Below, piece after piece: positions 10,798 to 53,700 of a stretch of 64,000 nt of DNA (positions are counted from its first letter, which is position 1; the number at the start of each line of letters is the position of its first letter). Source of the stretch: a virus; the IMG/VR virus record IMGVR_UViG_3300031952_000001, positions 147,983-211,982 of that record; one strand, written 5' to 3'. A model generated the notes under the pieces. That model searched no databases. It saw only the letters and a list, made by a program, of their open reading frames with translations, and was not told where the DNA came from. The translations under genes and the position numbers were made by a program.

Positions 10798-10816
10798 CAA
10801 TCTTTCCCTCCAGGTC

Positions 10817-10845: not shown

Positions 10846-10870
10846 ACCAGCAGGGAAGCTAGGAGGTTCA

Positions 10871-11413: not shown

Positions 11414-11762
11414 CCTGGACGCCTTCGCGGAGGAGCTGGCGGCGCGGGTAGAGCTTCCGCTGGATAGTCCCTCCAGCCTGACGTGGCCTTGGATCCTTTT
11501 CACGATTCTCAGTATCGTCCTGGTGAACCTCTTCGGGGCCACTGCGGCTGTGGTCGGTGGCTGCTGCGGAATGTACCTCTTTTCTTTACTCGGGTGGGCC
11601 TGGAAGAGGGTCAAGGTGCGAAGGCTATTCGTGGGCCTGGCGGTCAAGTCCCGAGCGGCGTTTCCTGATGCCGGCAAGGAGGAGGTCATCATCGGTACCC
11701 TCCTGGCGTGGAAGAACAACGGGCTCCCCCCGATCAAGGTTCGCCTGCCCGAGCACTACTAA
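11406..11762 (+). CDS. membrane protein, 118 aa
   Basis: A soluble N-terminus is followed by one long or two short hydrophobic helices (WPWILFTILSIVLVNLFG and AVVGGCCGMYLFSLLGW, about residues 27-64), then a basic cytoplasmic-type tail. It overlaps the triple-HTH gene by 8 bp. Role unknown. Confidence 0.65.
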   Translation: MVDLDAFAEELAARVELPLDSPSSLTWPWILFTILSIVLVNLFGATAAVVGGCCGMYLFSLLGWAWKRVKVRRLFVGLAVKSRAAFPDAGKEEVIIGTLLAWKNNGLPPIKVRLPEHY

Positions 11763-12484: not shown

Positions 12485-12543
12485 GGTCTGGAGTATATAA
12501 GACAGGCCTCCCAAGCTCCACAAAAAAAGTTTGTTCAGGTATC

Positions 12544-13587: not shown

Positions 13588-14370
13588 ATGTTCAAGAAGC
13601 TCATCGACAAGATCTTCGGACGGAAGAAGCCGACGGTTCGAGACGAGATCCTGAAGGACCTGGAGAAGTTCGTTTCGATGGGCATCACCCAGACCTCCAG
13701 GTGGATCGCACCAACGAATATCACCGTCACCAACAGCACCTCGTCGATAACGAGCGGGCCAATGCTCTTCTTGAACACTGGCGGCATCATGGACTCCGGA
13801 ACTCCGGTCGGGGATCCCGAATCCTCGGACCAGCGCGTCGAGGTGACGCCCAAGGACATCGTCGCAGAGTTCGAGCAGCCGGTGGACATCAACCTGGAAG
13901 ACCTCGAACGGAAGCTGGGCCTGCTCTACGAGCGCGCCGAGCTGTACAAGACGACGATCCGGCAGCCCATCCCTCCGGACATCCGGCACGCGATCAGCAT
14001 CTTGGAGGCGCGGAAGAACTACCCGAAGCTCGCGGAGTGGATTCCCTGGAAGACCACGACGCAGGAGAAGATCAACGATCTGTGCAAGAAGTACAAGCTC
14101 TCGCACCAGGGCACCGAGGACTTCATCCCCGAGCTTCCCCAGGAAGCCGTGGACGAGATCACCGCCTACCGGAAGGTGCACGAGGCGGCGTTCTCCCACG
14201 AGCCCAAGATCACCCCTCCGGTGGTGCTCTCCATCATCGCCCCGACGAGCATGTTCAAGACTCGGAAGGGCGATCCCATCCTCCTGGCGAAGTCGCCCTT
14301 CGGCGATTTCTTCTACGTGCTCTGCGCGTGGGACGAGGAAGTCGCGTTCGTGAAAGATTTACTTGCGTAG
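13588..14370 (+). CDS. hypothetical protein, 260 aa
   Basis: Begins with a short basic amphipathic helix (MFKKLIDKIFGRKKPT) that could touch a membrane or nucleic acid. A Ser/Thr-rich stretch and a helical central region (DLERKLGLLYERAELY) follow. No known domain was recognised. Confidence 0.65.
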   Translation: MFKKLIDKIFGRKKPTVRDEILKDLEKFVSMGITQTSRWIAPTNITVTNSTSSITSGPMLFLNTGGIMDSGTPVGDPESSDQRVEVTPKDIVAEFEQPVDINLEDLERKLGLLYERAELYKTTIRQPIPPDIRHAISILEARKNYPKLAEWIPWKTTTQEKINDLCKKYKLSHQGTEDFIPELPQEAVDEITAYRKVHEAAFSHEPKITPPVVLSIIAPTSMFKTRKGDPILLAKSPFGDFFYVLCAWDEEVAFVKDLLA

Positions 14371-19106: not shown

Positions 19107-19982
19107 ATGAAGACGATACGAATCGCAGAGTCCGGGGCCGTCGACCGCTTGGTCAAGTTCTTCAACGCGCGCCAGGCGGCGCTTGCGGACAGGCTCCAGC
19201 AAGTCCTGGACATGTACACGCCGACGAATTCAAGGTCGCCTGCGGGCAACCCCTACGTCGGTGAGGGTCTCGAAGGGCAGAAGTTCACCGTGACCCCAGC
19301 CCCCACCCAGGATCCCAGCCAGGAGCTGGCCTACGTCAAGGACAACACCGGCATGGAGGTCATCGTGGACCCCATGATCGCCATCCAGTACCTCCAGAAC
19401 GCTCCTCCGGAGGGTGTCTCCTTGGAGTCCATCTGGAACACCCTCAATCAGGTGAGCGCCGAGAGCCAGACCAGCGCGCTGACGTTCTCCGGACAGGATG
19501 AGGCCGCGGAGTCCGCTTGGGACCAGGCGATCACGGCTGCCCAGAGGAAGAGGGCCGTAAGCGAAGTCGAGGAGGCCATCAAGGAGCAGGTTGAGTTCTA
19601 CAAGAGCCAGCTCGACGAGGACACGAAGCGCAAGATTCAGATGCTGAACGAGGACCTGTACAACGGCCCTCTCTACGTGAATCCCGAGGATCCCGACGAG
19701 TGGTCCTACGCCAGCGCTGAGGAGGGCTACGTTGCCTTCGATTTCCAGGCTGCCAGCCGAGAGGTTATGGGCATCCTTCAAGACGTCGTCCAGGGCTTCT
19801 ACGTCGACGAGTACGGAGGTACCTACAGCTCCGAAAACGAAGCCTATCAGATGGCGAACTTGGGGTCGGATCGCGATCCTGAAGACGAAGACGACCCCTG
19901 GCTGCCCATGCTTTGGGAGGTAGAATCCGGTCAGATCATCGAGAAGATCCTCGGCAAAGAGCTGTACAACACGATCAGGTAG
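19107..19982 (+). CDS. hypothetical virion-associated protein, 291 aa
   Basis: Preceded by its own late promoter and CGGAGG. Strongly acidic, with an N-terminal helix (VDRLVKFFNARQAALADRL), a Pro/Gln linker and helical segments. No enzyme motif. Late expression and position between fibre genes suggest a virion or assembly role; the family is not recognised. Confidence 0.65.
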   Translation: MKTIRIAESGAVDRLVKFFNARQAALADRLQQVLDMYTPTNSRSPAGNPYVGEGLEGQKFTVTPAPTQDPSQELAYVKDNTGMEVIVDPMIAIQYLQNAPPEGVSLESIWNTLNQVSAESQTSALTFSGQDEAAESAWDQAITAAQRKRAVSEVEEAIKEQVEFYKSQLDEDTKRKIQMLNEDLYNGPLYVNPEDPDEWSYASAEEGYVAFDFQAASREVMGILQDVVQGFYVDEYGGTYSSENEAYQMANLGSDRDPEDEDDPWLPMLWEVESGQIIEKILGKELYNTIR

Positions 19983-24853: not shown

Positions 24854-26155
24854 ATGTCGCTCGAAGGACGGTTGGAAAGCATTGTGCAGGATGGGGACGA
24901 GGTCATCTTGACCTATCGCGAGAGCGATACCACCTCGACGGTCCGCCGGCTTCAGCTGTCGGAGTTCGAGCGGCAGTTCGGCATGCTCTCCCTGTTCAAC
25001 AAGAACAAGGAGTCCATCTCCGTCGACCCGGCGAAGGACGATCCGGAGATCGACACGCTCCAGGAGCTGGCGAACTTCCGGCAGGAGGTCCTGGAGGACC
25101 TGAAGAAGCGCGGCTCACTCTTGCAGGCGAGTTACGACTCCCTGAAGGACTTCATCACGACGACCCTCGTCCAGCGTGAGAAGCTCGCTTCGGGCCTGAA
25201 CGACAGTACAGGCAAGAGCCTCGCCTCTGTCGCCATGCTGCTGGAGCAGTCCAAGGAAGCCCAGAACAAGGCCTTGGACACCATCATCGGCCGCGACCAG
25301 ACGATCCGGGCCATCATGTCCGACCTGGAGACCCGGAAGGAGTGGACCTGGGACAACGCCCGCCGCGTGCAGCGCGAGGTCGAGCTGAGCAACGCGGCTC
25401 TGGCCGAGTTCAAGGCCAAGACCGAGAAGCAGCTCACCGACATGAACGTTGCGTTGACGGCGAAGATGAACTCCTTCGACGGCATGTTGCAGAGGCTCCA
25501 GACCGACAAGGACATCATGATCAAGGGTGTCGTCTCGGACGCCGAGCGCCTCATCGCGCAGCACCGGGCCGCCCTGGACGACAAGACCGAGATGCTGCGG
25601 ATGCAGCAGATCGACATGTACAAGAATTCGTACCTGGAGAACGAGCTGATCCGCCGCACCGCGGTCGAAGCCGAGAAGGCCGGCATCGCGCAGCGGCAGT
25701 TCGACTCCTTCCAGAAGAAGATCGAGGAGAAGCTCGGGGCCATCAAAGAGACCCTCGCCGTGCAGAAGGCACGCCTGGGTGAGGGCTTCCAGCTGCCGGC
25801 CGAGCTGGTCGAGAGTCTCCTGAAGGAGGACCACTTCTCCGACCTCCAGAAGGCCATCGACCGGGAGTCCGTGGAGGTCGAGGAGCTGAAGGCCAAGCTG
25901 AACATCTGCGAGAGCCAGGCGGTCAAGGTCCGGGAGCTGTTGACCACCCTCATGAAGGCCTTGCAGGACGCTCCTGCGGAGGTCTTCGAGCTGGTGACGC
26001 AGCTGGACGAGAAGGCGAAGTCCTGGACCGAGAAGGTCGGCCTGCTGGAGACCGAACTGAAGAAGCGCGGTGCTCTGAAGGAGCTGACGAAGGTCGAGGT
26101 CGTGGAGAAGACCGAGGAGAAGAAGGGGTTCTTCAAGAGGTTGATCGGGAAGTAG
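24854..26155 (+). CDS. long coiled-coil protein, 433 aa
   Basis: Apart from a short beta-like start (MSLEGRLESIVQDGDEVIL), the protein is nearly continuous heptad-type helix rich in Glu, Lys, Leu and Gln. It ends in a lysine-rich tail with a hydrophobic patch (GFFKRLIGK). A rod-like fibre shaft or an assembly chaperone for adjacent fibres is plausible. AGGAGG precedes the ATG. Confidence 0.7.
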   Translation: MSLEGRLESIVQDGDEVILTYRESDTTSTVRRLQLSEFERQFGMLSLFNKNKESISVDPAKDDPEIDTLQELANFRQEVLEDLKKRGSLLQASYDSLKDFITTTLVQREKLASGLNDSTGKSLASVAMLLEQSKEAQNKALDTIIGRDQTIRAIMSDLETRKEWTWDNARRVQREVELSNAALAEFKAKTEKQLTDMNVALTAKMNSFDGMLQRLQTDKDIMIKGVVSDAERLIAQHRAALDDKTEMLRMQQIDMYKNSYLENELIRRTAVEAEKAGIAQRQFDSFQKKIEEKLGAIKETLAVQKARLGEGFQLPAELVESLLKEDHFSDLQKAIDRESVEVEELKAKLNICESQAVKVRELLTTLMKALQDAPAEVFELVTQLDEKAKSWTEKVGLLETELKKRGALKELTKVEVVEKTEEKKGFFKRLIGK

Positions 26156-26199
26156 GGACGAATAGGTATGCACGAATCTTGCAAATCTATGCAGTCTGA

Positions 26200-26219
26200 A
26201 AACCTCAAGAAAGAGGTTT
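26200..26219 (+). promoter_or_regulatory. hairpin that includes the ribosome-binding site of the next gene
   Basis: AAACCTC and GAGGTTT form a 7-bp stem with a 6-nt loop. The purine-rich right arm is the only Shine-Dalgarno-like sequence ahead of the ATG at 26227, so folding would hide it. Confidence 0.5.
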
Positions 26220-26226
26220 CATAGTC

Positions 26227-27477
26227 ATGGCTTTCCTCTCGGAAGAATTAGTTAATTTCTCATTTAAGGGGTGGAACGCCCTTCTGGGCACGGCTAATAG
26301 AAATACATCGCCCAACAATCTAGCGTGGTACGAAGAATTCTACCCTGCCGACGTCGAGGTGAAGCCCCTTCAGATCCTCGTCGAGTTCGACCAGATCCCG
26401 ATTGCCCCGGATCTCGTGACCGCGCAGGCGAACGCCGCGGCGGCCCCATCGAGGATCGCGGACTACTCCCTGGCGACAACCGCTATTCGGCTCACGCCAA
26501 CGGTCAACCAGACTGCGTTCTTCGCTCTGAGCACCTTCGGTGACTGGACGACAAGAATGCAAAACTGGTTGCTCCCCCAGCACTACCCCTTGGCGGACGG
26601 AACCCCCTCGTTCGGGTACCAGGTGCGGCTGTGGAACGGTGATCCGAATGCCGGTGGTGTCGAGATCTTTCCAACTACTGGAAAAATCGATGCTTTTACC
26701 GCTTGGACCTTCTCGTACGGTGCCGGCGCTATCGTCATCGCCTCGAACGCAGTGGCGGCACTCATCACCGACGTCAACCAGGTATATATTCAAGGATTTC
26801 AATACGTTGGCCCCACGGGTGTCGTCGCCAGCACGGCGAAGATCTTCACGTACCCCTTCACGGCGCAGATGGCGATCACGGTGCCCCACAACCTGGGGAC
26901 GAAGCGGCTGCTGTCCTACATCCACGACGACGGCACCAACGATTTCGAGATCACCGGGGTGGCGGCGACCTGGCGGTACACGGACGACAACAACATCGAC
27001 ATCACCTTCGCGACCCCGACCTCGGGGGTGGTCGTCGTGGGCAGCTTCGACGGCGAGACGTTCTACGGGGACTACGCCTCCGCGGTGAACCTGGTGCACG
27101 AGCATGCGTTCAACCAGAACCACGGGTACAACACGTACGACCCGGTGACCTTCGACGACTACAGGTACGCCCTGTCGGCGTACACCTTCAACGGGGCCTA
27201 CCAGGACCTGTCGAGCTGGGTGGCGGCTCGGGATGCGGAGTTCTGGCTGGTCGCAGGGATGCCGCGCCGGTACATGCAGACGTTCCCCAGCTCGACGACC
27301 TGGGTCGTGCAGCACAACCTCGGCCGGCGGGAGGTGTTCCTGAGCGTCCAGGGCATCGGGGCCCTCGTCGGCGTGGACATGTACTCCATGGCGGCTACCG
27401 TGCAGAGAAATCTGAACAATGTGACAATAACATGGGCTACTGCGAAGGCTGGCCGTGTTATGGTAGGGACAATCTGA
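26227..27477 (+). CDS. tail fibre protein with repeated HNLG modules, 416 aa
   Basis: Two copies of a beta module common in phage fibres are present: MAITVPHNLGTKRLLSYI and WVVQHNLGRREVFLSVQ, each followed by a strand pattern ending near a G-x-V-x-V-G motif. The N-terminal 100 residues differ and may attach to the baseplate. The first 100 bp are more AT-rich than the rest. Late fibre cluster. Confidence 0.7.
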   Translation: MAFLSEELVNFSFKGWNALLGTANRNTSPNNLAWYEEFYPADVEVKPLQILVEFDQIPIAPDLVTAQANAAAAPSRIADYSLATTAIRLTPTVNQTAFFALSTFGDWTTRMQNWLLPQHYPLADGTPSFGYQVRLWNGDPNAGGVEIFPTTGKIDAFTAWTFSYGAGAIVIASNAVAALITDVNQVYIQGFQYVGPTGVVASTAKIFTYPFTAQMAITVPHNLGTKRLLSYIHDDGTNDFEITGVAATWRYTDDNNIDITFATPTSGVVVVGSFDGETFYGDYASAVNLVHEHAFNQNHGYNTYDPVTFDDYRYALSAYTFNGAYQDLSSWVAARDAEFWLVAGMPRRYMQTFPSSTTWVVQHNLGRREVFLSVQGIGALVGVDMYSMAATVQRNLNNVTITWATAKAGRVMVGTI

Positions 27478-27486
27478 GGTGCATCG

Positions 27487-28926
27487 ATGAAGCAGCCATA
27501 CGGAAACGCGCTACCGGCAGCCCCCACCAGGGGGGACTCCTGCTTCCGTGACGATGGGACTCTGCACTTCTGCTACACAGATGGAGTCTGGACTCAGATC
27601 AGCGGCGGGGCCTCTGCGTTCACGGACCTCACGGATGCTCCGGCGTCCTACGTCGGACAAGCGGGGAACGTCGTTTCGGTCAACCCGGGCGAGACCGGGT
27701 TGCAGTTCAGTCCCGCGGGCGGGACTTCTCGGCTGGAGTATGGCACTGCGGTTGTAGTCCAGGGGGATTCTACCAATTGTATAAGAATTGATTTCCCCCC
27801 TGAAGTGAACAGGCACGCGGCCGACATGTACAATCATCCGGGTGAGTATTTCGGTAAATGTAAGTTTGATGTCTTTGAAATTACAGGGGGGACACCAGCT
27901 AGCATTGTAAACTCCTGGCTCGGTCAAAGTTTTGCCAATATTGCAGCTCTGTATGCCTTCATACTCGCTAACTTTATTCCGGGGAGTGGTCCAGGAAGGG
28001 TAGCGAACTGGGCCCTCATCAAGTGGTACGATGAAATCGACGACACCTATACACAGATTTCCAAGATCTGGGGGATCAACAAGTTCTACTCCATGCTGCG
28101 CGGCCGGGAGCACTACCGGGATTCCATTTACTGCCTCACCCCGGAGTGCATCCGCTGGAATAGGCTTGCTCTCTGGTTCGAGGACCTCTGTAACCAGAAC
28201 GTAGGGTTCGGACCGGGACACACATACAACCCTAATGATGAAAAAGCGATCTGGGTGTCCCGTAACGAAAAGAAGATGTACGGCCTGCCTCGTGCAGGGT
28301 TCACTTCATTTATAACCTCCGCTGGAGATCGGCGCATCTGGGACTGGGGTTCCTCTAGTTTTGACCCGCTTCCGGTACCGGTTGCTTATGTAAATACACC
28401 CTCTTGGGGGCTACCGCTCATGTACTGCCACCTCGACGTCAACACCGTTAGTTGGAGGTGGGATCCTGTTACCAATTATCTGTTCATGTATAATACCTCC
28501 CGTACTACATCGAGCACGGTGGTCTTATATGCCATGGAGTCTTCAGCTGACCCCAACCATCGGTCTTTGTTCTTGAAACCGCTCGGAATAGACCGCCTTG
28601 GTTTTAATTGGTTCGACTGCAGTATTTACGATCTGTACGGCCTCTATACCAGAAAAAATACGTCTCCTATCATACGGCAGCTTGCTGGCATTGCCCAGGA
28701 GACCGCCTCTCGTGACTTCGTGTGGGTCAACCGTCCCGGCTGGGACGTGGTTGCCCTCGGCCCTCAGGCTCGCTTATCGAAAAACATGGTGGGCTTGCAG
28801 CCCTGGACTACACAGTTTTTCCTGAGGGACAAAACGACCAAAAAAATATCTCGCGTCTCTGTAGCTCGCGTTGTTCGTTCTCAGAGGCACTACAACGCGC
28901 CCTTCAAGTACGAGGTGCGAAGATGA
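27487..28926 (+). CDS. tail fibre, receptor-binding paralogue A, 479 aa
   Basis: Modular. Residues 1-43 (MKQPYGNALPAAPTRGDSCF then DGVWTQISGGASA) match the N-terminus of the spike at 29072. A collar module AFTDLTDAPASYVGQAGNVV follows. From about residue 95 a large domain is homologous to the 395-aa protein at 30959: both share GIN-x5-RGR-x-H, (Y/F)G(L/A)P(R/K)AG, K(P/A)LGID and FRLRD/FFLRD. Base composition becomes more AT-rich at about 27775, exactly where this domain begins, suggesting domain exchange. A hairpin array follows the stop codon. Confidence 0.75.
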   Translation: MKQPYGNALPAAPTRGDSCFRDDGTLHFCYTDGVWTQISGGASAFTDLTDAPASYVGQAGNVVSVNPGETGLQFSPAGGTSRLEYGTAVVVQGDSTNCIRIDFPPEVNRHAADMYNHPGEYFGKCKFDVFEITGGTPASIVNSWLGQSFANIAALYAFILANFIPGSGPGRVANWALIKWYDEIDDTYTQISKIWGINKFYSMLRGREHYRDSIYCLTPECIRWNRLALWFEDLCNQNVGFGPGHTYNPNDEKAIWVSRNEKKMYGLPRAGFTSFITSAGDRRIWDWGSSSFDPLPVPVAYVNTPSWGLPLMYCHLDVNTVSWRWDPVTNYLFMYNTSRTTSSTVVLYAMESSADPNHRSLFLKPLGIDRLGFNWFDCSIYDLYGLYTRKNTSPIIRQLAGIAQETASRDFVWVNRPGWDVVALGPQARLSKNMVGLQPWTTQFFLRDKTTKKISRVSVARVVRSQRHYNAPFKYEVRR

Positions 28927-28938
28927 CAAGTTTATGCA

Positions 28939-29050
28939 GGTCCGCGAAGCGTCAGTCGGACCACCTAAGGTCTGCGAAGTGTCAGTCAGACCACAATAGG
29001 CCCGCGAAGCGTCAGTCGGGCCACTCAACGGATGCCCTCGTGATGAGGGC
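28939..29050 (+). repeat. array of three covarying hairpins plus a fourth stem-loop
   Basis: Three 24-nt hairpins start at 28939, 28969 and 28999 (30-bp period), each with a 6-bp stem and 12-nt loop. Stems are GGTCCG/CGGACC, GGTCTG/CAGACC and GGCCCG/CGGGCC, so stem changes are compensated on the other arm. The loop is CGAAGCGTCAGT (one C-to-T change in copy 2). A further stem GCCCTC/GAGGGC with a 5-nt loop spans 29034-29050. The region lies between two fibre genes and has no T-tract. Confidence 0.8.
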
Positions 29051-29071
29051 TTCACATAGGCAGTAGTCGCT

Positions 29072-30499
29072 ATGAAGTTCCCGTGCGGCGCAACTCTACT
29101 TCCGGCCCCAACGCAGGACGACATCCAGGTCCGCACGACGGATGACACTGTGCACTACTGCAAGACCCCAGGGGTGTGGACCCCGCTCGCCGGGGGTGCC
29201 TCGGCTGCCTACCGCCTGTACGATGCGGTGGTGAGCGCCATAGGCACTCCCGGCGTAGATTGCGATTTCAACGACGTCCAGTCGGCTGTCAGCTCGGGCG
29301 CGAAGACGATCTACATCCGCAAGGGCACCTACCTCAACGTCGGAGCAGCGCTCACTTTCAACGGCTTGAACAACGTCCGTCTCATCGGAGAGGAGTGGTC
29401 GTCGACCATCATTCAGTCCGATGACTCCTTGAACCATGTCGTCGAGATGTTCAGTTGCAGTGACATGTCCTTCGAGAACATTAAGTTCGAGTTCGCTCTT
29501 CCACTGACTGGTGGGAAGGACGCCATCGTCTACACCGTAGGTGCATGCCACCGCATCAACTTCCGCCGCTGCTGGTTCTCTGGGGACAGCCCCCGCGCGG
29601 CTCCGGGTTTCGTAGAGCGCGGGATCTATTCTATGAACGGTGCGAAGACCTATTGGAATATTGACTGGTGCAGGTTCGACCGGTTGGCTTACTCGGGGAT
29701 GACGCTGTATGACGGCTCCCCGGCGCGGGCTTGCAACTACATCAAGATCATCAACAACACGTTTACGGACGGAAGTGGGAACTTCGGTCTCGACACGTAC
29801 GTTGGCTGCAAGTTCTGGGTCATCTCCTTCAACCACTTCGAGAACCTGAACTCGCCGGTTGCCAGTATTAGCGGGGCGCTGTTTTTTAACGGCCAGGCCG
29901 GCAGCTCGCTCAACCTCAAGCACGCGGTGTCGTTCAATGTCTTCAAGAATGTCCCCCTTGCCTGTCAGTTCGATCATAACTGCCACGAGATCATCATCAA
30001 CGGGAACGTCTTTGACGGTACCGACGTGAACATCCGGTTCTGTCGCAACGACAACACACGGCATCATGTGAGTAACAACTACAACCATGGTGCTACCGCA
30101 CTTAACGTGGACATCGACTATACCAGCTTGGATGTGGACGCCGTCTTCTACCTCGGAGGAAACTGGCAGAACGAGCTGTGGAGGATCGTAGGAGATCCCA
30201 ACCAGCCGGCGTACCTGAACTCTTGGACGTTCGTAACGGCGTCTGCGAACGGCGCTGCGTTCGTCGTGGATGACAGCCACGAGGTCCTCCTCAGAGGGAA
30301 CGTGACGGGTGGCTCCATCGGTACGGTGATCTTCACGTTGCCTCCCAACCACAGACCCCCGGACTACCCCAGGCGCTTCGTCGTTGAGAGCAACGGCGGC
30401 TACGGGCTCGTGGAGGTCAACACGGCTGGGCAGGTGACCGCGCTGGCGGGCGACCCCACTCGGATCTGCTTGGACGGGATCCGGTTCAGAGTGAACTGA
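29072..30499 (+). CDS. tailspike with right-handed beta-helix, 475 aa
   Basis: The first 45 residues repeat the attachment domain of the gene at 27487 (LLPAPTQDD, then GVWTPLAGGASA). A pectate-lyase-like start follows (DCDFNDVQSAVSSGAKTIYI, typical of the first rung), then beta-helix coils with Asn ladders (IKIINNTFTDGSGNFGLDTY) to about residue 400 and a small C-terminal cap. Predicted surface-polysaccharide depolymerase or adhesin. Catalytic residues cannot be named without a structure. Confidence 0.75.
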   Translation: MKFPCGATLLPAPTQDDIQVRTTDDTVHYCKTPGVWTPLAGGASAAYRLYDAVVSAIGTPGVDCDFNDVQSAVSSGAKTIYIRKGTYLNVGAALTFNGLNNVRLIGEEWSSTIIQSDDSLNHVVEMFSCSDMSFENIKFEFALPLTGGKDAIVYTVGACHRINFRRCWFSGDSPRAAPGFVERGIYSMNGAKTYWNIDWCRFDRLAYSGMTLYDGSPARACNYIKIINNTFTDGSGNFGLDTYVGCKFWVISFNHFENLNSPVASISGALFFNGQAGSSLNLKHAVSFNVFKNVPLACQFDHNCHEIIINGNVFDGTDVNIRFCRNDNTRHHVSNNYNHGATALNVDIDYTSLDVDAVFYLGGNWQNELWRIVGDPNQPAYLNSWTFVTASANGAAFVVDDSHEVLLRGNVTGGSIGTVIFTLPPNHRPPDYPRRFVVESNGGYGLVEVNTAGQVTALAGDPTRICLDGIRFRVN

Positions 30500-30951
30500 T
30501 GGCACGCGGCATAGAAAAATGGGTCACCGGGCAGCAGTACAAGATGGGCGATTTTGTGATCGCCGAAAATCAAGAGCTGTTTGTCTGCATGTTCAACAAC
30601 ACCGCAGGGGCCAACTTCCTGACGGACCTCATCACGAACCACTACTGGGAGTACGTTTCCGCGCGCCAGACCATTCAGCCGGTGAACAGCAACATCGCCA
30701 TCACTCCCGTCCGGCCGTACCTTTACCTCGTGGACTGCTGGAACAACCCGGTCACGATCACCATCGACAGTAGCTTTTCTCCCGAGGGCTTGGAAATCTG
30801 CTTCAAGAAGGTCCGGGGCACGTACCCATTGACGCTGGTGAATGGAGGTGGGACCTTGATCGACGGGCAGGCGTCTTATCCGATCACGCCTCTCATGGAA
30901 ACCCTTCGCATGGTCTACGACACGAACCTGTCGTACTGGTGGATAGTGTGA
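30499..30951 (+). CDS. small fibre-associated protein with carbohydrate-binding-like start, 150 aa
   Basis: Start overlaps the spike stop (TGATG). The opening EKWVTGQQYKMGDFVIAENQ resembles the W-x(5-6)-Y-x2-GD-x-V signature of chitin-binding-type modules found on phage fibres. The remainder is beta-rich (PLTLVNGGGTLIDGQASY). It could be a fibre tip or spike chaperone. Confidence 0.6.
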   Translation: MARGIEKWVTGQQYKMGDFVIAENQELFVCMFNNTAGANFLTDLITNHYWEYVSARQTIQPVNSNIAITPVRPYLYLVDCWNNPVTITIDSSFSPEGLEICFKKVRGTYPLTLVNGGGTLIDGQASYPITPLMETLRMVYDTNLSYWWIV

Positions 30952-30958
30952 GGACACC

Positions 30959-32146
30959 ATGAGCTTCAAAGACAAATCGTACAAGAAGGTCATGTACGAC
31001 TCCTTCCTCTGCGTTGCAGTGGATGATCCTGTCGGCGCAGCTCTTTGGTACGGCAGGATGCGACGAACTGCTCCGACTCTCGAAGATGATGAGACGCGCC
31101 TTTTCGGTCATGCGTTCTACGACATCACCTTCCGCATCGGAGGCGCTGTTCTGAACCAGATAGAAGGGCTCACCCTTCCGGCGAACCTCGGGGCTCTGGC
31201 AGCCGCCGTGATGGCAGTGACGCCGAACGGCGGTGGTGTTTACACCCAAAACGCTGTCGTCACCGTGTACGACAAGGTCGACTACTCGATTCCGCGGATC
31301 GAGAAGGTCTACGGTATCAACACCCCCATGTACCAGATTCGGGGGCGGCGGCACGGCCGCGACCATAGGACCGCCGTTGCGCGTCCCTACTCCGCAGGAG
31401 GCCAGCGGTGGCCTGCCCTCTATGATTTCATCCCCGCAGCGTTCCAGGCGTGCTGGGGTATGATCCCAACCACCGTCCCTTCGGACGCCAACGGTGGTTT
31501 CCGAACCCTGTGGACGGGTTCTGATAGTCGGAAGCGCTTTGGTGCTCCGAAGGCCGGAATGGTCACCCAAGGGTATCTTCCCGGGGAGCGTTACTACTAC
31601 GACGATATTGCGAATACCTACAACGACTGCTTTGGTATTGAGATGACCATCGGATCCCCAGTCATCTGTTCCTGGGTGTCTTATGATACGTGGTGGTGGT
31701 ACCTCTACTACCAGCAGGAAAATACAAGAATGGCCTTTATCTATCCGCAGTGCCTTGTATACCCTCTGTACGATTTTGCTAATCCGAACCGCAAGGCCTT
31801 GTTGGTAAAGGCCCTTGGGATCGACAGTGTCCATGTGGACCGTTACGACACCTCACGCTACATGCTGGAGGTCGTTGGGGTTCGCAAGGACCGCACTCCG
31901 AAGCTGTTGAAGCAGTTCAGTGGCTCCCCTGGCGACTACAGTGAGTGGAGGAATGCTTTCAGGATCCCGAAGGCTAGCTGGCTGCCGAAGCAGGGGAGCC
32001 TGATGGGTGCGGGAAGCATCGAAGCCTGGAGGTTGAAGTTCCGTCTTCGTGACACCCTCACGAACCGGGTGGGGGCTTTCTCGAACGCGAGCATCGTACC
32101 GGTCATGAACACCCGGTACCGGAGGTTGTTCTTCATGGTGAAATAA
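30959..32146 (+). CDS. tail fibre, receptor-binding paralogue B, 395 aa
   Basis: Homologous along most of its length to residues 95-479 of the protein at 27487 but without the N-terminal attachment and collar modules: residues 1-30 are unique. Shared landmarks include VYGINTPMYQIRGRRHGRDH, RFGAPKAG, VKALGID and LKFRLRD near the end. It may be carried by the neighbouring 150-aa protein, or it may be a silent cassette exchangeable with paralogue A. It is also followed by a three-hairpin array. Confidence 0.7.
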   Translation: MSFKDKSYKKVMYDSFLCVAVDDPVGAALWYGRMRRTAPTLEDDETRLFGHAFYDITFRIGGAVLNQIEGLTLPANLGALAAAVMAVTPNGGGVYTQNAVVTVYDKVDYSIPRIEKVYGINTPMYQIRGRRHGRDHRTAVARPYSAGGQRWPALYDFIPAAFQACWGMIPTTVPSDANGGFRTLWTGSDSRKRFGAPKAGMVTQGYLPGERYYYDDIANTYNDCFGIEMTIGSPVICSWVSYDTWWWYLYYQQENTRMAFIYPQCLVYPLYDFANPNRKALLVKALGIDSVHVDRYDTSRYMLEVVGVRKDRTPKLLKQFSGSPGDYSEWRNAFRIPKASWLPKQGSLMGAGSIEAWRLKFRLRDTLTNRVGAFSNASIVPVMNTRYRRLFFMVK

Positions 32147-32165
32147 CCATGTTGACATTCAAGTA

Positions 32166-32252
32166 GGTCGCCTGGCTTAAAGTGCGACCGACTGAAGGCC
32201 GCCTGGATTCGAGTGCGGCCGATGGGGAGGCCGCCTGGATTAAAGTGCGGCC
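32166..32252 (+). repeat. second array of three covarying hairpins
   Basis: Hairpins start at 32166, 32197 and 32229 (31- and 32-bp spacing). Stems are GGTCGC/GCGACC, GGCCGC/GCGGCC and GGCCGC/GCGGCC. Loops are 12 nt: CTGGCTTAAAGT, CTGGATTCGAGT and CTGGATTAAAGT. The 6-bp stem and 12-nt loop match the first array exactly although sequences differ. It starts 20 bp after the stop of paralogue B. Confidence 0.8.
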
Positions 32253-32274
32253 GATGAGAGAAAGGGTTCTGATC

Positions 32275-32336
32275 TTGCGCCCGGCGGGGCCCGGTGTTTT
32301 AGAAATCCGAAACCCGCCATAGTATACTGGGCGCAA
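32275..32336 (+). promoter_or_regulatory. late-class promoter enclosed by an 8-bp inverted repeat
   Basis: TTTTAGAAATCC (32297-32308), 14 bp, TATACT (32323-32328). TTGCGCCC (32275-32282) and GGGCGCAA (32329-32336) are perfect inverted arms, the right one abutting the -10 box. It drives the gene at 32392. Confidence 0.8.
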
Positions 32337-32391
32337 CCGAGAACATTCGGAGGGCTGGTCCCTTCGTCACAAGTTTGCAAGGAGAAGCAAC

Positions 32392-33051
32392 ATGTACCTG
32401 TACCTCAGATGTCTGGGCTCCACGAACGTGACGGTCACGGGCGACAACAACGTCCCGAACGTCTCTCTCACCAAGGGCGAGACGGAGACGGTGCTGGCGT
32501 CCCAGGCCATGGGCAACGTCGTGTTCTGCGACTCGTGCGCGAGCCTCATCACGAAGGCCCACCTCGAAGTCCGCGTCGGCACGGCCACCGGCCGCATCCT
32601 GACGGCGGCGGAGATGGAAGCCGTGAAGAACGGCACGCTGTTCGATCTCGACGAGGACGGCATGGTCGACGAGGCCGAGCACCTCGCGGGCGTCGAGTTC
32701 ACCATCGATCTGGTGGACGGCGTGACCGAGTGGTCGATGGTCCTCCCGGGCGACGGCTCCAAGCGGTTCATCCCGAAGCGCGCCCTCGTGCTGTGCACCG
32801 AGGACGACACCCTGGCGGCGGACGCGACCCTGAGCATCGGCACGGCTCCGGCCGGCACCCAGTACCTCAACGGCGTGGCGCTCACCGGCCTCAACAACAC
32901 GAACATGGCTATCGAGAAGGTCATCGACGCCACGACGACGGCGATTCCGGCGGTCGCGGACAACGCGACCCTCTACTGCCGTCTCGCAGCGGCGGACACC
33001 GGCACGTCCGGCACCGCGAAGGTCGTGGTCGAGGGCACTTTCGTCGGCTAG
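32392..33051 (+). CDS. virion-associated protein with EF-hand loop, 219 aa
   Basis: AAGGAG precedes the ATG, and this gene has its own strong late promoter. Residues 85-96 read DLDEDGMVDEAE, fitting the 12-residue EF-hand calcium loop at positions 1, 3, 5, 6, 9 and 12. The rest is beta-rich with two early cysteines (FCDSC). Abundant expression and a small beta-rich body suggest a decoration or fibre-related virion protein; calcium could stabilise it. Confidence 0.65.
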   Translation: MYLYLRCLGSTNVTVTGDNNVPNVSLTKGETETVLASQAMGNVVFCDSCASLITKAHLEVRVGTATGRILTAAEMEAVKNGTLFDLDEDGMVDEAEHLAGVEFTIDLVDGVTEWSMVLPGDGSKRFIPKRALVLCTEDDTLAADATLSIGTAPAGTQYLNGVALTGLNNTNMAIEKVIDATTTAIPAVADNATLYCRLAAADTGTSGTAKVVVEGTFVG

Positions 33052-33062
33052 GACCCACTTCG

Positions 33063-33094
33063 CGCTAGCATCCAGGTACCCTTTGTTGTATGGT
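33063..33094 (+). promoter_or_regulatory. late-class promoter (weaker element)
   Basis: CGCTAGCATCC begins 26 bp ahead of TATGGT (33089-33094). The spacer holds TCCAGGTACCCTTT, also present at 42512 beside another late promoter. Confidence 0.5.
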
Positions 33095-33129
33095 AGGGCC
33101 TCGTCTGTCCTACACAACGAGGTGCCAAC

Positions 33130-34877: not shown

Positions 34878-34879
34878 AG

Positions 34880-34969
34880 TTCAACCCTACCTTTAAGACC
34901 TTCAAGGTACCTTCAACCCTACCTTACCCTAGCCTTCAACCCTACTTTGAAAACCTTCAACCCTACCTT
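34880..34969 (+). repeat. iteron-like direct repeats TTCAACCCTACYTT
   Basis: Full 14-bp copies start at 34880, 34912, 34935 and 34956 (the third has TTT instead of CTT); a partial copy is at 34901. Spacing is 32, 23 and 21 bp. A related TTCAACCCTCCC occurs near 35260. Confidence 0.7.
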
Positions 34970-34992
34970 GAACCTTTGTTTTAACCACCACC

Positions 34993-35195
34993 AAGGTATA
35001 GTCAAGACCCCCTTGGTACCCCTTCTGGGAGCTGAAAATACCATAGGTTTGAACCCTTCAAAGAGGTCTTGACTATACCTTCCTGGCGGTTGCATCGATG
35101 GTTACTATTTTATTAGAAGTTATACGTTTCATAACCCGAAATACTGTCAAAATTATTCAATGATTTATAGCGAACTAGCCTCTTGACTATACCTT
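34993..35195. repeat. three copies of TTGACTATACCTT, two forming a 17-bp inverted repeat
   Basis: AAGGTATAGTCAAGACC (34993-35009) and GGTCTTGACTATACCTT (35065-35081) are perfect inverted arms 55 bp apart. A third copy in the second orientation is at 35183-35195. All three extend into a similar downstream sequence ending GGTT, so the real unit is about 23 bp. No -10 hexamer is correctly spaced, so these are not simply early promoters. Confidence 0.7.
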
Positions 35196-35482
35196 GCCGA
35201 CGGTTAGTGGCATACCTTCATAGGGTTGGAAGTCAAGGGGAAGATGGGCCTCAAATTCAACCCTCCCGGGAAGGGTCTTGGGTTGCAACCGCTGGTAAAC
35301 AAGATGTCAAGGCCTTTTGAAGGGTGTTAGAAGGCCTAGCCGCTCAAGGCCGCGCGCCGTGCGCCACTGGTATTCTTGCGCTTTTCAACTGGGTATTGCA
35401 GCTGGTGTCCGTTTTTACAGTATTTCTATCTTTCTAACTCGGTTTTCAACCTTTTCAACCCTGTTTTTGCGTTTTTTGCCGA

Positions 35483-35549
35483 GGGTATTCCTCAGATCCT
35501 TCAGAACTCTTCAGTTCCTTCAGAGTTCTTCAGGATCTTCAGAATACCC
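35483..35549. repeat. 67-bp composite palindrome of helically phased TTCAG units
   Basis: Nested inverted arms GGGTATTC/GAATACCC, GATCC/GGATC and GAACTC/GAGTTC are separated by symmetrical 4-nt TTCA or CTCA interruptions around a 13-nt centre. The same DNA reads as six (T/C)TCAG units at 35491, 35500, 35510, 35519, 35529 and 35538, spaced 9 or 10 bp. Confidence 0.75.
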
Positions 35550-35777
35550 CCAGATGATCTACAGGAACTCTATAGCTATGTACAAGAACCACTTGGGATC
35601 AGGATCGTCCGATCCTATTGATCCAGCTTTGTAAGTTTATTCATCAAAATTAGACTGGGATCGTCTGTACGACTTACCTTTAAGGGGCTCGAAGAGCATT
35701 CAACTTGGGAAAACCCCCGGGGCGATTTTTACATCATTTGGTGATGTATTGGCAAGGTATGCCTACAACCCGTAGGG

Positions 35778-35808
35778 TTTAAAAATTCAACAGGTCTTGT
35801 AGTACGCT
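35778..35808 (+). promoter_or_regulatory. late-class promoter
   Basis: TTTAAAAATTC (35778-35788), then -10 TACGCT (35803-35808), 40 bp before the ATG at 35848. Confidence 0.7.
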
Positions 35809-37181: not shown

Positions 37182-37468
37182 GCCCAGTCACAAAGACCTT
37201 CACCCATGATCACGTCGTCCGCGACCCTGCGGGGAAACCGGTCGGCCGCGCGATCCTACTCAACGACAAGGGCTACACCGAGGGAGCCCCGCTTCCGGTG
37301 GCGGTCCTGCTCGTCCCGGTGACCGCGACGAAGAACATCCGGAGCTTCGTGTTCTACATCGACGGCATCGCGTACAGGATCCCGCAGGACACGCCTCAAG
37401 GGCGGATACTGCTCTCAGAGGGCATGCACAAGGTCAACCACGTTGTGCTCCAGAAAGTGAACCCGTAA
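37178..37468 (+). CDS. hypothetical protein, 96 aa
   Basis: The ATG at 37178 overlaps the upstream stop, and its own stop shares a base with the terminase ATG. A beta-rich small domain (GRAILLNDKGYTEGAPLPVA, FVFYIDGIAYRIP) is sandwiched in the packaging operon. Role unknown. Confidence 0.65.
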   Translation: MSPVTKTFTHDHVVRDPAGKPVGRAILLNDKGYTEGAPLPVAVLLVPVTATKNIRSFVFYIDGIAYRIPQDTPQGRILLSEGMHKVNHVVLQKVNP

Positions 37469-39723
37469 TGGAGACCGGTTTTCTCGACAACATCGGCAAG
37501 AGGATCGACACTGCGCTGGAGTCGAGGACGTCGAGCGGCTTGACCGGTCCCGAGGTCGAGTACCTCCGCCGGCCGGCTCCGAACATCTGCGAGTGGGTGA
37601 CCGGGCTCGACTACTGGAACGTGCCCACGACGTTCGACCACACCCGCCAGTACCAGATCATGCGCGACCTGTTCGGGGTGCGCTGTCCGATCTGCAACTC
37701 GATGAAGCCCGAGGCGGTCGACTGCTGGGGCAAGAGCCGGATGTACCTGGAGTCCGAGGTGCTGCTCTGCTGGGTCGAGAGCGAGCAGGACTTCGTGTGC
37801 CCGCGGTGCGGCAGCACGCAGCGCGAGCTGCTCCACGACGGCATCCTCCAGGCCTACAACGAGACGATCATCCTGGCCGGCATGCGCTCGGGGAAATCGT
37901 ACCTGGGCGCTCACATCGGAGGGTACTTCGAGAACTTCATATCGAGCCGGGCGATGTTCGGCCAGGGCCACCTCCAGAGGATGCTGAAGCAGGAGAAGAG
38001 CGAGTGGTTCGAGGTCACCTTCTCCGCGTCGACCGCGACCCAGGCGCAGCAGACCATCTACGCCAAGTACCGCGAGATGCGGAAGAACTCTCCGTGGATT
38101 CAGCGCTACTCCTCGTGGGTCCAGGCCTTCGAGTCTCAGCAACCCTCGGAAGTCGACCGCTGGATGTACAACACCAACGCCGACGCCATCCTGGATGGCT
38201 GGGCGCGCGTGCGCTACAACCGCATCGCTAGCGACTCGGCCGGTGTCGCCGGCAAGACGCGCATCATGGCGTCCATCGACGAGTGGGCTCGTCTCGCGGA
38301 CACCGAGGGCAGCCGCTCCGCGAAGGAGCTGTACCGCGTGCTGAACCAGTCCCTCGCCACGGTCCGCGCCGCGGTGATGCAGAACGAGCTTCCGTCTTTC
38401 CTGGGGATGATGCTGAACGTGACCTCGCCGATCTCGCAGGACGACCCGGCGATGGAGCACTACAACAAGGCGGCCGAGGGGATCCTGCCGAGGACGTACT
38501 ACTGGAAGGGCGCGACCTGGGACTTCAACCCGCAGATGCCGCGGCACGTCTTCGACGACGACTACGTGAAGGACGCCATGGGCGCGGAGCGTGACTTCGG
38601 GGCGAACCCGCCGAACGCCGAGAGCCCCTACGTGGACGACCCGAAGCGTTTCTGGAAGAGCATCGACTTCGACCGCGACCCCATCGCCCGCTTCCGGCCC
38701 TCGTTCTTCGAGGACACGACGGGCAAGAAGTACATCGGCATGGAGGTCGAGGAGTGCAAGCTGAACCACGTCAACCCCTACTACCTGTTCGGTGACGCCG
38801 GGCTCAACTGGGACTCGTTCGGGCTCGTCATGGCGCACTCCGAGTGGCTCAACGTGGACGACTTCGAGTCCGACGAGACTGGCCCCGACGGAGAGCCCCT
38901 CATTCGCCAGAGGGCTCCTGTGGGCCGCGGCAGGATGGAGCCTGTCGACGAGTACGGGGTCGTCTTCTCCGAGGACCTGGGGACGTTCCTCGGCGCGAAC
39001 ATGCCGGTCGGTGCCGACGGCGACATGATCATGGAGGCTCAGAAGAACCGCCGCCGCATGGCGAACTACTTCACCGCCTCGAACAAGGCCGGCGCTCGTC
39101 CGTTCGATCACATGAACGAGATGCTGTGCACGGTGATCGACTTCTCCGTGCGCATCGTTCCGACCCGGGAGCGGGACATCTGGTTCAACTCGGTCGTGAA
39201 CATCATCGCCGAGGTCCAGAAGAAGGTCCGGATCGCCGGGGTGGCGTTCGACCACTGGAACGCCGAGTCCACGATCCAGCAGCTCCGGACGATGGGCATC
39301 ATCACGACGAAGGTCCAGCTCGGGCCGGTCCACTTCATGAACTTCCTGCGGATGACCTACAACGGCCGGGTGAAGCTCCTTCCGCCACATGCGGAGGACA
39401 CCGTGGGCATCACGGACACGGGGGCCCTCGTGATCGCGACCCCGCAGGAGCAGATGCAAGGGCAGTCCGTCGCGCTGGTCGAGCTGCTCAAGCTCACGCG
39501 GTCTCCGGACCTGAAGAAGTTCTTCAACCCGAAGAAGGGGACCGTCCGGGGTCGAGACTCGGACGATCTCGCGCGCTGCTACGTCGGCGTCCACCATCTC
39601 ATCCAGGATTCTATTGTGGATTCTCAGGCAAATATGAAGAGAAAGATGAATATACGAAAGAGAATGGCTGCCACGGATACAAGCGCTCTAGGCTCTGTTG
39701 TCTCGGGGAGAGGTTCCTGGTAG
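37468..39723 (+). CDS. terL: terminase large subunit (packaging ATPase/nuclease)
   Basis: Motor that pumps DNA into the prohead and cuts concatemers. Walker A GMRSGKS at residues 138-144, Walker B MASIDEWA with D271-E272, and RNase H-like nuclease acids at FGDAG (D443), FDHWN and RDSDDLARC near the C-terminus. At 751 aa it is longer than typical 450-650-aa enzymes because of an N-terminal extension with CPIC (73-76) and CPRC (111-114), probably a zinc module, before the ATPase. The last 40 residues are AT-richer and basic (MKRKMNIRKRM). A TnpB gene begins 3 bp after the stop. Confidence 0.92.
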   Translation: METGFLDNIGKRIDTALESRTSSGLTGPEVEYLRRPAPNICEWVTGLDYWNVPTTFDHTRQYQIMRDLFGVRCPICNSMKPEAVDCWGKSRMYLESEVLLCWVESEQDFVCPRCGSTQRELLHDGILQAYNETIILAGMRSGKSYLGAHIGGYFENFISSRAMFGQGHLQRMLKQEKSEWFEVTFSASTATQAQQTIYAKYREMRKNSPWIQRYSSWVQAFESQQPSEVDRWMYNTNADAILDGWARVRYNRIASDSAGVAGKTRIMASIDEWARLADTEGSRSAKELYRVLNQSLATVRAAVMQNELPSFLGMMLNVTSPISQDDPAMEHYNKAAEGILPRTYYWKGATWDFNPQMPRHVFDDDYVKDAMGAERDFGANPPNAESPYVDDPKRFWKSIDFDRDPIARFRPSFFEDTTGKKYIGMEVEECKLNHVNPYYLFGDAGLNWDSFGLVMAHSEWLNVDDFESDETGPDGEPLIRQRAPVGRGRMEPVDEYGVVFSEDLGTFLGANMPVGADGDMIMEAQKNRRRMANYFTASNKAGARPFDHMNEMLCTVIDFSVRIVPTRERDIWFNSVVNIIAEVQKKVRIAGVAFDHWNAESTIQQLRTMGIITTKVQLGPVHFMNFLRMTYNGRVKLLPPHAEDTVGITDTGALVIATPQEQMQGQSVALVELLKLTRSPDLKKFFNPKKGTVRGRDSDDLARCYVGVHHLIQDSIVDSQANMKRKMNIRKRMAATDTSALGSVVSGRGSW

Positions 39724-50377: not shown

Positions 50378-50770
50378 ATGAACGAGCAGAACACCCCCGA
50401 GACCGAATCCCCGCGGGAGGACAACGTGACCACCCTTCCGGTTCCGCCGGCAGCCCCCGCACCGGCAGCTCAGGAGCTGCCCACTGTGGGGTCTCCGAAG
50501 CGCTCCCATGTGAAGCTGAACCGGGCCCAGCGCGCCGAGGTGCGCTTGGCTTTCATGACCATCACGGAGGCGGAGACGCGGTTCAAGGCCGCGACGGAAG
50601 CCGCCAACGTGGCTCGAAGCTCGACGATGTCGGCCAGGTCCCAGGCTCTGGAGGCTCAGGCCAAGATTCTCCAGGAGCTGGACCTGTCCGACGACAACAT
50701 CGTCGATGTGGAGAACCTCGTGGTTCTGCCTCCGAAGGGTGAGTCGTTCGTGAAAGGCAGGAATGAGTAG
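50378..50770 (+). CDS. hypothetical head-operon protein, 130 aa
   Basis: Pro/Ala-rich start (LPVPPAAPAPAAQELP), then a helix (FKAATEAANVARSSTMSARS). Overlaps the portal gene by 8 bp. No family recognised. Confidence 0.6.
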   Translation: MNEQNTPETESPREDNVTTLPVPPAAPAPAAQELPTVGSPKRSHVKLNRAQRAEVRLAFMTITEAETRFKAATEAANVARSSTMSARSQALEAQAKILQELDLSDDNIVDVENLVVLPPKGESFVKGRNE

Positions 50771-53700
50771 CTTCATCCCGAACCGCCAGTCGTCCGTGTT
50801 CAAGCCGAGGATCATCTCCTCGGATTCCTCTTCCATGAGGCAGGAGATCGCGTCGAGCGTTCTCCCCAAGGGTGCCTCACTGGCGGTTCCGTCCTCGTTC
50901 CACCAGAGGACTGCTTCCGGCTTCTTCGGAGGCAACATGCCGATGGGGGTCTCCCCCTTCGGCTCGGGCGGCGGTGGCGGCAGCTCCATGTACCATATGC
51001 AGCGGCCCTACATGCCCGGGGTGGAGTCCCCCGACCGAGTCCAGTACCCAAGAACCCGAGAGGAAGCCAACCGGGCTTGGCGACTGTTCCATGAGACCGA
51101 CCCGATCTTCGGTACAGCCATGGACATGTACGCCGAGATGCTCGTCTCCGATTTCGACGTCATCGTCGGCGACGACAAGTCCTCCGAGATTCGGAACACC
51201 TTGGAGTACATGTGCCAGACGACCAACCTGATGGACAGACTCCGCTATATCATCCGCGAGTACCTGGTGCTCGGAGAGGCGATCCCTCACTGCTGGACGC
51301 CTGAGCAGAGCGTTCTGACTCCTGATGGGTTCAAGAGGATCGATACCGTCGCTGAGGGTGATCTGGTGCTCACCCATGAGCGTCGATTCCGACCTGTCAC
51401 GGAGGTGCACGTCAGGGAATATTCTGGCGATGTCTTGAATTTCGGCATTGAAGGGATCTCTGCGCTTCCGTGCAGGTGTACTCCGGAGCACCCTCTCTAC
51501 GTGTGGACTGAAGACGGTCCGGTTTGGAAGCGTGCGAAGGACGTGACCATTCTGGACCACATCGCAGTGGGGGTCGATAAGGACGTCGAAGACATCGAAG
51601 ATTTTGACGTCTCTGATGTCGTTCCCGAGTATTTTGATTTGTTGGCCGAGAACGACAAGCACAATGAGCATACGGGGCGGGAGCCCATTCCGGACATCGT
51701 CAAGGTCGACGAAGACTTCATGCGGCTGGTCGGGTACTACTACTCGGAGGGCAACGCCTTCGTGACCAGCCGGAAGGGCCGGCTGACTTTCTCTTTCCAC
51801 ATAGACGAGGCCCCCTATCACGAAGATGTGGCTCGGATCGTCAAGGCCAAGTTCGGAGTGGAGTGTCGCTTTGACATGAAGCCCGACACCCACACCTGCC
51901 AGATACATATTGATTCCAAGATCATTGCGAGCTTTTTCCTCAACCTATTTGGGACGGGTTGCAGGGACAAGCTAGTCCCTTCCTGGCTTCGGAAGTTGCC
52001 TATCCACAAGCAGAAGAGCTTTCTGATAGGGCTCTTCCGCGGGGACGGAAACATCTACTACAGCAAGGTGAGTAAGTTCACGACCGCTCAGGTGCAGCTG
52101 GCTCATGAAGGTGTTACCCATCTAGCTTGGCAGATGCTCTTGCGGATGGACGTTGCCGCGTCCTTCAACATCTTCAGCAGAGCCCGGTATGGCAGTTACT
52201 GGAAGTGCTCTTTCAATGCCGGCGTGTACTCTGCCCTCGCGGAAGAGATCTTTGAAGAGTATGTCGAGCCTGCTCTCATAGTCAGGAAGCATGCGCAGAT
52301 CCGTCACGACACTCTCTTCTATCGAGTTCGTTCCATCGAGCGTGAAGAGTACGAAGGCTCTGTGTACAACCTCGAAGTGGAGGAAGACCACAGCTACGTT
52401 GTGGGCGGCATCGTTAGCCACAACTGCTTCTTCGACGACAGCCTGGGGATCTGGACCTACATCGCGATGCACAACCCGGACTTCATCGAGGTCCTGGATT
52501 CCCCCATCGTGAACATGGACCCGATCATCAGCTTCATCCCCGACGAGTCCCTCAGGTCGATGATGTCCGCAGGTACGCCAGAGGCTCGCGAGTTCCGTGC
52601 GCGATTGCCGCCGGATTTCGTCTCCAGGATCCTCGCTCGACAGAAGATTCGCCTGTCGCCGCTGAACTGTACGTTCATTCCGCGAAAGCTCCATCCGTAC
52701 CAGACGCGCGGGACTTCGTTGGCGAGCAGAATGTGGCGAATCTTCATGGTCGAGGATGCGGTATATAATTCCACAATTGCGACATTCAGGAGACATGCGT
52801 CACCTGTTAAAGTGTTGAAACTTGGGGATCCTGCGACGGGCTGGATACCTGCGCCAGGTGCGGAAACTAAGCTACTTGAGATGCTTAACCGAGCTGAGGT
52901 GGATCCACACAGCTGGTTGATTTATCATTATGGGATTAACTTTGAGCAGTGGGGCACGACGGACAAGAGTGTCACAATTGGCAAAGAGCATGATGTGATA
53001 GAACGTGTGAAACTTTTGGCACTTGGGTTGTCCAAGAGTTTTATGACAGGCGAGGTCACGTACGCCTCATCGTTATACGATTCTTTCGTTAGATCTTCGG
53101 ATGATTCGACTGTTTTTCTTGGTGAGGTGCTAGTTGGAGATCTCGTTAAGGATCGGTTCGGTGACACCCAGAAAGTCACCAATGTTCTGAAGTACCCTTC
53201 GCCAGACAAGATGGTGAAGATCTCGGTGTACGGCAACCGCAGCTTGACGCTCACCGACAACCACTTCCTTCCCGTCTTCATGCGCCCGAGGACTTGTCTG
53301 TGTGGCTGTGGTACGCTGCTCGGTGATGAGCGCTACGTCGCCCAGGGCCACATGTTCTGGCGGTCGTTCGTTCCTGGTCACCACAAGCTCAGCGAACGTG
53401 GGGGCCGGGACCGGGTCTGGAAAGAGTACAAGCACGACGACAAGGTGATCGTCCGGTTCCCCGAGAAGCATGACCCTCACCAGAAGCTCATGGCTGCCGA
53501 GGTCATCAAGGGTGACTGGCTGATGATCCCTCGGAAGTTCGAGGTGTCCGACACGCCGGCCACGGAAGAGAACCTCAAGAAGGCTCGGTTGCTCGGATAC
53601 TACGTTGCCGAAGGCAGCGTGCGGGATGGGGCGACTCCTGGTGCCAACCCGAGCGCCACCTTTTCTTTTGGCAACGAAGAGAAGGAGCTGCTTTACGCGG

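Follow-up and report, generated by a model that had tools for sequence, protein, structure and literature searches.

Gene-specific three-hairpin arrays behind fibre-type genes of two uncultured phages, candidate 3′-UTR RNA control elements

The coat-protein operators of MS2 and PP7 are single hairpins near a start codon, with a bulged A on the 5′ side of the stem and a loop of 4–6 nt. REPs have a sequence that is common across the genome, lie behind many unrelated genes and are associated with RAYT (Y1) transposases. Iron-responsive elements occur in several tandem copies in the 3′ UTR of the transferrin receptor. In these UTR hairpins of animal mRNAs, a C at the first loop position pairs with a G at the last but one and so closes the loop, the final base stays unpaired and a protein reads the loop (PMC8466369). 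The DGR target hairpin is a single hairpin with a stem of 7–10 bp and a 4-nt GRNA loop; the structure of its stem matters, not the stem sequence, and the loop is critical (PMC3240598).

The stretch of DNA analysed here (the window, 64,000 nt) covers positions 147983–211982 of the 212-kb virus record IMGVR_UViG_3300031952_000001. It comes from a tailed phage whose terminase gene lies at 37468–39723, and the nearest annotated relative of the terminase is that of Virus Rctr197k (36% identity). Two hairpin arrays lie on the plus strand of the window. Array 1 (28939–29022) consists of GGTCCG-CGAAGCGTCAGT-CGGACC (28939–28962), GGTCTG-CGAAGTGTCAGT-CAGACC (28969–28992) and GGCCCG-CGAAGCGTCAGT-CGGGCC (28999–29022), with spacings of 30 and 30 nt. 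Array 2 (32166–32252) consists of GGTCGC-CTGGCTTAAAGT-GCGACC (32166–32189), GGCCGC-CTGGATTCGAGT-GCGGCC (32197–32220) and GGCCGC-CTGGATTAAAGT-GCGGCC (32229–32252), with spacings of 31 and 32 nt. As the first-pass annotation had reported and as can be read directly, the two are equal in copy number (three), stem (6 bp) and loop length (12 nt). Its description of array 2 as non-coding also holds, the array being intergenic: it starts 19 nt past a stop codon at 32144–32146 and ends 139 nt short of the next start at 32392. When all 212 kb of the record were scanned for runs of at least three perfect stem-6 hairpins with equal loop lengths, exactly these two triplet arrays came up, and 60 dinucleotide-preserving shuffles of the record gave a mean of 0.07 arrays, none of them with a loop of 12 nt.

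Stem differences among the copies of arrays 1 and 2 were all double and compensatory; in array 1, pair 5 changed from C–G to T–A in the second hairpin and pair 3 from T–A to C–G in the third. With the observed substitutions placed at random, array 1 would show its compensatory-only pattern with a P of ~1e-4 and array 2 with a P of 4e-3. Such changes alone are no proof of selection, since template-switch repair of palindromes could make them too. The loops of both arrays are partly closed. In array 1, loop bases 1 and 11 pair (C–G) and U12 is bulged, which leaves 9 nt free; array 2 has the same C–G pair and bulged U12, and U2–A10 also pairs, leaving 7 nt. Taken as a whole, array 1 had an unexceptional folding energy (z = –0.97).

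Array 1 begins 12 nt past the stop codon of P0001 (27487–28926, plus strand, 479 aa), which has an N-terminal anchor, a fibre-linker motif and a C-terminal domain shared with P0003. P0003 (30959–32146, plus strand, 395 aa), the gene ahead of array 2, is a paralogue of this C-terminal domain without the anchor (24% identity over ~370 residues, BLASTP E 2e-18), and the two are the only members of the domain family in the 212-kb record. The two window arrays had been taken as independent of one another. With paralogous genes in front of them and a finer motif in common (the 1–11 pair and the bulged U12), that independence does not stand. P0002 (29072–30499, plus strand) provides an internal control: it has only the N-terminal anchor in common with P0001 (tblastn 31.6% over 155 aa at the N-terminus), no array comes after it, and the following gene starts at 30499. 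The linker motif of P0001 is also found in phage tail proteins, among them the phrog_11660 tail protein, and at other sites of the window. Because of the anchor it shares with P0002 and this recurring motif, P0001 is likely, judging from its sequence, to be a fibre or putative receptor-binding tip, and its fibre-type matches are confined to the N-terminal part.

The domain shared by P0001 and P0003 had no meaningful match in Pfam, PHROGs or PDB, and the C-terminal domain family had none among 50,697 phage records. Relatives of P0002 and P0003, and of two small profiles, were sought in viral and genome contigs and none were found. The protein family showed no recognisable fold: a structural search gave no usable match, and both AlphaFold models (pLDDT 31 and 48) were too poor to interpret. 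A query that joined the P0001 domain with P0005 identified one IMG/VR contig, IMGVR_UViG_3300017971_000328 (locus L097), at 44% identity. This is a 55.9-kb contig of a second, distantly related uncultured phage, and it carries three consecutive genes of the domain family (7758–9164, 9668–11002 and 11185–12516), each followed by a three-hairpin array. Array B1 starts at 9183 (stem GGTGRG-CGTAACTAAGGT, spacing 32 and 32 nt), B2 at 11014 (stems AGCATG/GTCCTG/GGCCTG-TTTGGTTRKAAT, spacing 30 and 30 nt) and B3 at 12532 (stem GGCAGG-CCCATATTGAGT, spacing 31 and 31 nt); no other perfect-stem array was found in the whole 55.9 kb. The domain is modular in that it occurs with and without the anchor, in two to three copies per record. 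A short N-terminal anchor (MKQPYGSTLPVAPTVGDV...DGVWTAVG) starts several fibre genes that are otherwise unlike one another (27487–27610 and 29072–29190 in the window; 9668, 11185, 14297 and 14761 in L097), so that anchors and tips form a modular mix.

A further array in L097, B4 (13858–13943, 11-nt loop CAGGTAGCAGT, spacing 31 and 30 nt), surfaced as DNA repeats and not through the hairpin criterion. Its stems have G·U wobbles and a mismatch in one copy, and C...AGU is still present; the wobbles are G·U on the sense strand and would be A·C on the other strand. B4 comes after P0007 (12662–13846), which adjoins the family genes and by eye resembles a distant member. We rejected P0007 as a family member, its profile score falling within shuffled controls (BLASTP 0.27). 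It may be a very distant member of the family, or the element may be able to follow other fibre genes; no homology of P0007 to the family is detectable, so that arrays are not limited strictly to family genes.

The suggestion that the arrays represent a recurring element class rather than chance is borne out by this second phage, as six arrays (18 hairpins) are now known. Only these two phage records carry the element. The arrays track one orphan domain family plus one adjacent gene: an array follows all five domain-family genes of the two phages, the sixth (B4) lies behind the neighbouring P0007, and none of the three anchor-only genes (P0002 in the window, P0009 and P0010 in L097) has one. 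The copies always number three, and the spacing is 30–32 nt in six of six arrays. The first stem begins 11–19 nt past the stop codon in every case, which is just outside the terminating ribosome; the interval up to the following gene varies more. All six arrays are positioned relative to the preceding gene.

In the five arrays with 12-nt loops, all seven pairs had changed on both sides and 84 of 84 cells were paired (12 distinct hairpins), where the 100% pairing of the first six pairs is partly a matter of selection, arrays 1, 2 and B1–B3 having been picked by their perfect stems. The covariation score for these five arrays was 0.85, compared to 0.25 in shuffles and ~0.1 with slid partners. 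The seventh pair (loop positions 1–11), the unpaired U, the gene-family link and array B4 were not search criteria. This seventh pair is C–G in five arrays and U–A in one, and the unpaired U at the last loop position is invariant (18/18 copies). None of the 84 cells of the perfect-stem arrays is a G·U pair, which is unusual for RNA helices. Within arrays, loop differences amounted to 12/180 and linker differences to 37/90 (P 2e-11, the comparisons not being independent). From one array to another, 0–5 of the eight inner loop bases are the same. For the closest cross-phage gene pair, P0001 and L097:9668–10999 (49% identical), one of eight inner loop bases is common, and geometry and copy number are kept despite the differing loops. 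Loops that are near-constant within an array and differ between genes indicate a common scaffold with a gene-specific loop. The hairpins of B3 are identical in all three copies, which indicates that local homogenisation or duplication also occurs. For array 2 and B3, where the copies are near-identical, the minimum-energy fold pairs neighbouring units and not three hairpins, so the hairpins there would need to fold during transcription.

The MS2/PP7 operators, which are bound by a phage protein, are likewise small hairpins with one bulged base, and their loops are read by sequence, as those of the arrays may be; the arrays differ in lying past the stop codon, in occurring in threes and in having the bulged base, a U, on the 3′ side. 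Iron-responsive elements have in common with the arrays the C–G closing pair (U–A in one array) and the unpaired last loop base. Their loop, of 6 nt, contains an AGU triplet and the lower part of their stem has a bulged C, whereas the arrays have gene-specific loops of 11–12 nt (8–9 nt free), no bulged C and no AGU triloop. By analogy, the resemblance to iron-responsive elements is one of architecture only, not of membership.

We believe that the arrays are cis-acting 3′-UTR RNA elements, each belonging to a single fibre-tip (putative receptor-binding) gene, and that they are candidate protein-binding sites controlling that mRNA; we put the probability of this reading at roughly one half. With one shape throughout and a loop of its own for each gene, the array family suggests an mRNA control element of a gene-specific, undescribed kind. 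The scaffold common to the hairpins comprises a stem of 6 bp, a U bulged out on the 3′ side, a C–G closing pair (replaced by U–A in one array) and a loop of 9 nt (8 nt in B4); the stem sequence is free, and the near-constant loop of an array is private to its gene. The sequences of the two phages themselves show this structure, the copy number, the covariation, the closeness to the stop codon and the link to the domain family. We infer that the functional form is RNA and that an RNA-binding protein of the phage or the host would recognise the scaffold (bulged U and closing pair) in common, with the loop giving gene specificity. Three evenly spaced bound sites would then control the stability, translation or co-translational assembly of the fibre mRNA. 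An RNA-level element is favoured by the constant distance from the stop codon, the sense-strand G·U pairs of B4 and the conservation of the loops; a DNA-level element is favoured by the spacing of about three helical turns, the lack of G·U in the other five arrays and the likeness to the DGR target hairpin. A hypothetical extension, which we consider doubtful, is a private-address system in which a cognate factor (possibly the fibre domain or a chaperone) would read the loop, and the three sites would hold together the three nascent or freshly made subunits of a homotrimeric fibre so that paralogous fibres produced simultaneously stay unmixed.

A DNA-level function would make the arrays target sites, single-stranded hairpins or cruciforms behind the receptor-binding domain, read by a recombination or diversification enzyme, through which tips are exchanged or varied. 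Their position directly past the stop codon of a putative receptor-binding domain fits such a role, as do the modular occurrence of the domain, the constant extrahelical T and the spacing near 31 bp, which is also that of three turns of B-DNA. Moreover, stem structure is kept with varying sequence and the loop is conserved, as in the DGR target hairpin (PMC3240598), and the DGR of Bordetella phage BPP-1 likewise has a short GC-rich inverted repeat past the stop codon of a receptor-binding gene, mtd (PMC3240598). DGRs have one such hairpin, with a GRNA loop common across systems, together with a reverse transcriptase and a template repeat, whereas the arrays have three hairpins with 6-bp stems and 12-nt private loops with a bulged U. 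Searches for a reverse transcriptase (PF00078) gave no match in the 212-kb record or the 55.9-kb contig (controls positive; the records may be incomplete), and blastn of 26000–33100 against the whole record detected neither the 3′ end of P0001 nor that of P0003 a second time, as a template repeat would require. A DGR target site was rejected on these two absences and on the wrong loop and copy number. An integron attC site was rejected as well, there being no integron-type tyrosine recombinase in the 212-kb record (PF00589, no match; controls positive 14/14), and this record also lacks a Y1 transposase. The gene-specific loops offer no common sequence for one enzyme to read, and the G·U wobbles of B4 suit a sense-strand RNA. 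On balance, we regard target sites in DNA as unlikely, while conceivable.

REP/BIME elements resemble the arrays as palindromic units arrayed at gene 3′ ends. In the arrays, by contrast, the inner loop differs by gene and a single gene group is followed, and REP/RAYT was rejected because the Y1 transposase family (PF01797) had no match in the 212-kb record (controls positive). A REP-like function is nevertheless worth weighing, in which the triplets of highly expressed fibre genes would do no more than stop exonucleases or mark where transcripts end, and the loop would have no role. The location immediately after the stop codon, the GC-rich stems, the further hairpins after array 1, B2 and B4, and the local duplication seen in B3 fit such passive protection. 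It does not account for loops that vary less than linkers within arrays or for neighbouring genes without such arrays, and exactly three copies, the 30–32-nt spacing and an invariant bulged U would be superfluous for a passive block; together with the missing REP-type transposase in the 212-kb record, this makes it rather improbable. No T-run follows the array hairpins in the sequence, as an intrinsic terminator would call for, and a terminator scan that takes only loops of 3–8 nt lists none of them. An unrelated single hairpin 3′ of array 1 (29034–29050, plus strand, GCCCTC-GTGAT-GAGGGC), also without a T-run, may mark a transcript end or a processing site. A weak promoter-like site (32300–32328, plus strand, TAGAAA-17-TATACT) separates array 2 from the gene that follows, in a region where the promoter scan overall was not clearly above shuffles.

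The private loops might be read by base pairing rather than by protein, as seed sites for another RNA or DNA (kissing or guide interactions). They differ by gene, are near-constant in triplicate and have 8–9 free bases that could act as a seed. Complementarity within the own gene and its flanks was not above chance (P 0.67–1.0), and the window arrays had only two 10-nt antisense matches in the 212 kb, no more than chance, so that we think base-pairing loops a poor candidate. Far less probable still is a type III antitoxin-like RNA, tandem repeats that bind the protein product of the neighbouring gene: the repeats of 30–32 nt do lie in tandem beside a gene, but they come after the linked gene and not before a toxin, and loop complementarity to gene and flanks, through which a pseudoknot might form, was not above chance. 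Among Pfam families, hence also those of type III toxins (ToxIN and kin), none matched the window genes adjoining the arrays. CsrA-type GGA loops were also rejected, as GGA occurs in only two of three array-2 loops and in none of array 1.

We examined 72 fibre loci (788 kb), fetched through the fibre-linker motif, for triplet hairpins of this kind. The link to fibre genes that the first-pass annotation had proposed stands insofar as the arrays follow fibre-type genes; as a general feature of such genes it fails, and the search it had recommended near other fibre genes came back empty (0 in 72 loci, compared to 0.4 expected in shuffles). In the two phages, a covariance model derived from 15 hairpins recovered the known arrays and nothing more; it gave no convincing match in the 72 loci or in Virus Rctr197k, which has no domain-family member and no comparable hairpin array. 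Near-identical phage contigs (L015–L017) end before reaching the fibre region. In a looser scan, matches at control loci looked like low-complexity or short-period repeats, with the exception of an unrelated palindrome array in L016. Across IMG/VR, the loop pair pattern of array 1 had no match, and the loop pattern of array 2 had four, which lacked hairpins and resembled coding repeats. In the window, Rfam 15 gave no match at gathering score, and even with E values up to 1 neither window array was matched; one weak, irrelevant match fell in L097, outside the arrays. In the open-access literature we found nothing relevant on tandem hairpins behind phage fibre genes.

Phages often have several paralogous fibre or receptor-binding genes, and how the expression and assembly of these are kept separate is poorly understood. 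If our reading is correct, an RNA element of fixed geometry with a gene-specific loop behind each member of one family would be a new layer of control, and the motif would be a new RNA family missing from Rfam, with an explicit covariance model. Eighteen defined hairpins are at hand, and the signature to search for is three 24-nt hairpins, 30–32 nt apart, 11–19 nt past a stop codon.

Several features elsewhere in these genomes were also observed. The window has an AT-rich, non-coding stretch upstream of the terminase region (34878–35780) with repeats of CCTTCAACCCTACCTT and long inverted repeats (34971–35015 with 35059–35103), which looks like a replication origin or control region. In L016, a contig whose terminase is 98% identical to that of the window phage, a different hairpin array begins at position 638, with three palindromes, TACCTTGAA-GACC-TTCAAGGTA and variants, 32 nt apart; it apparently sits in the counterpart of this AT-rich stretch. 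Two stretches of the Virus Rctr197k genome (KX853510; L023:10803–12317 and 19281–19535) carry a CRISPR annotation within a phage genome. Finally, a 1429-aa protein of the window (50763–55052) matches a portal-protein profile at residues 544–770; the match is bordered by stretches fitting unrelated profiles, and the protein is unusually long for a portal-like protein.
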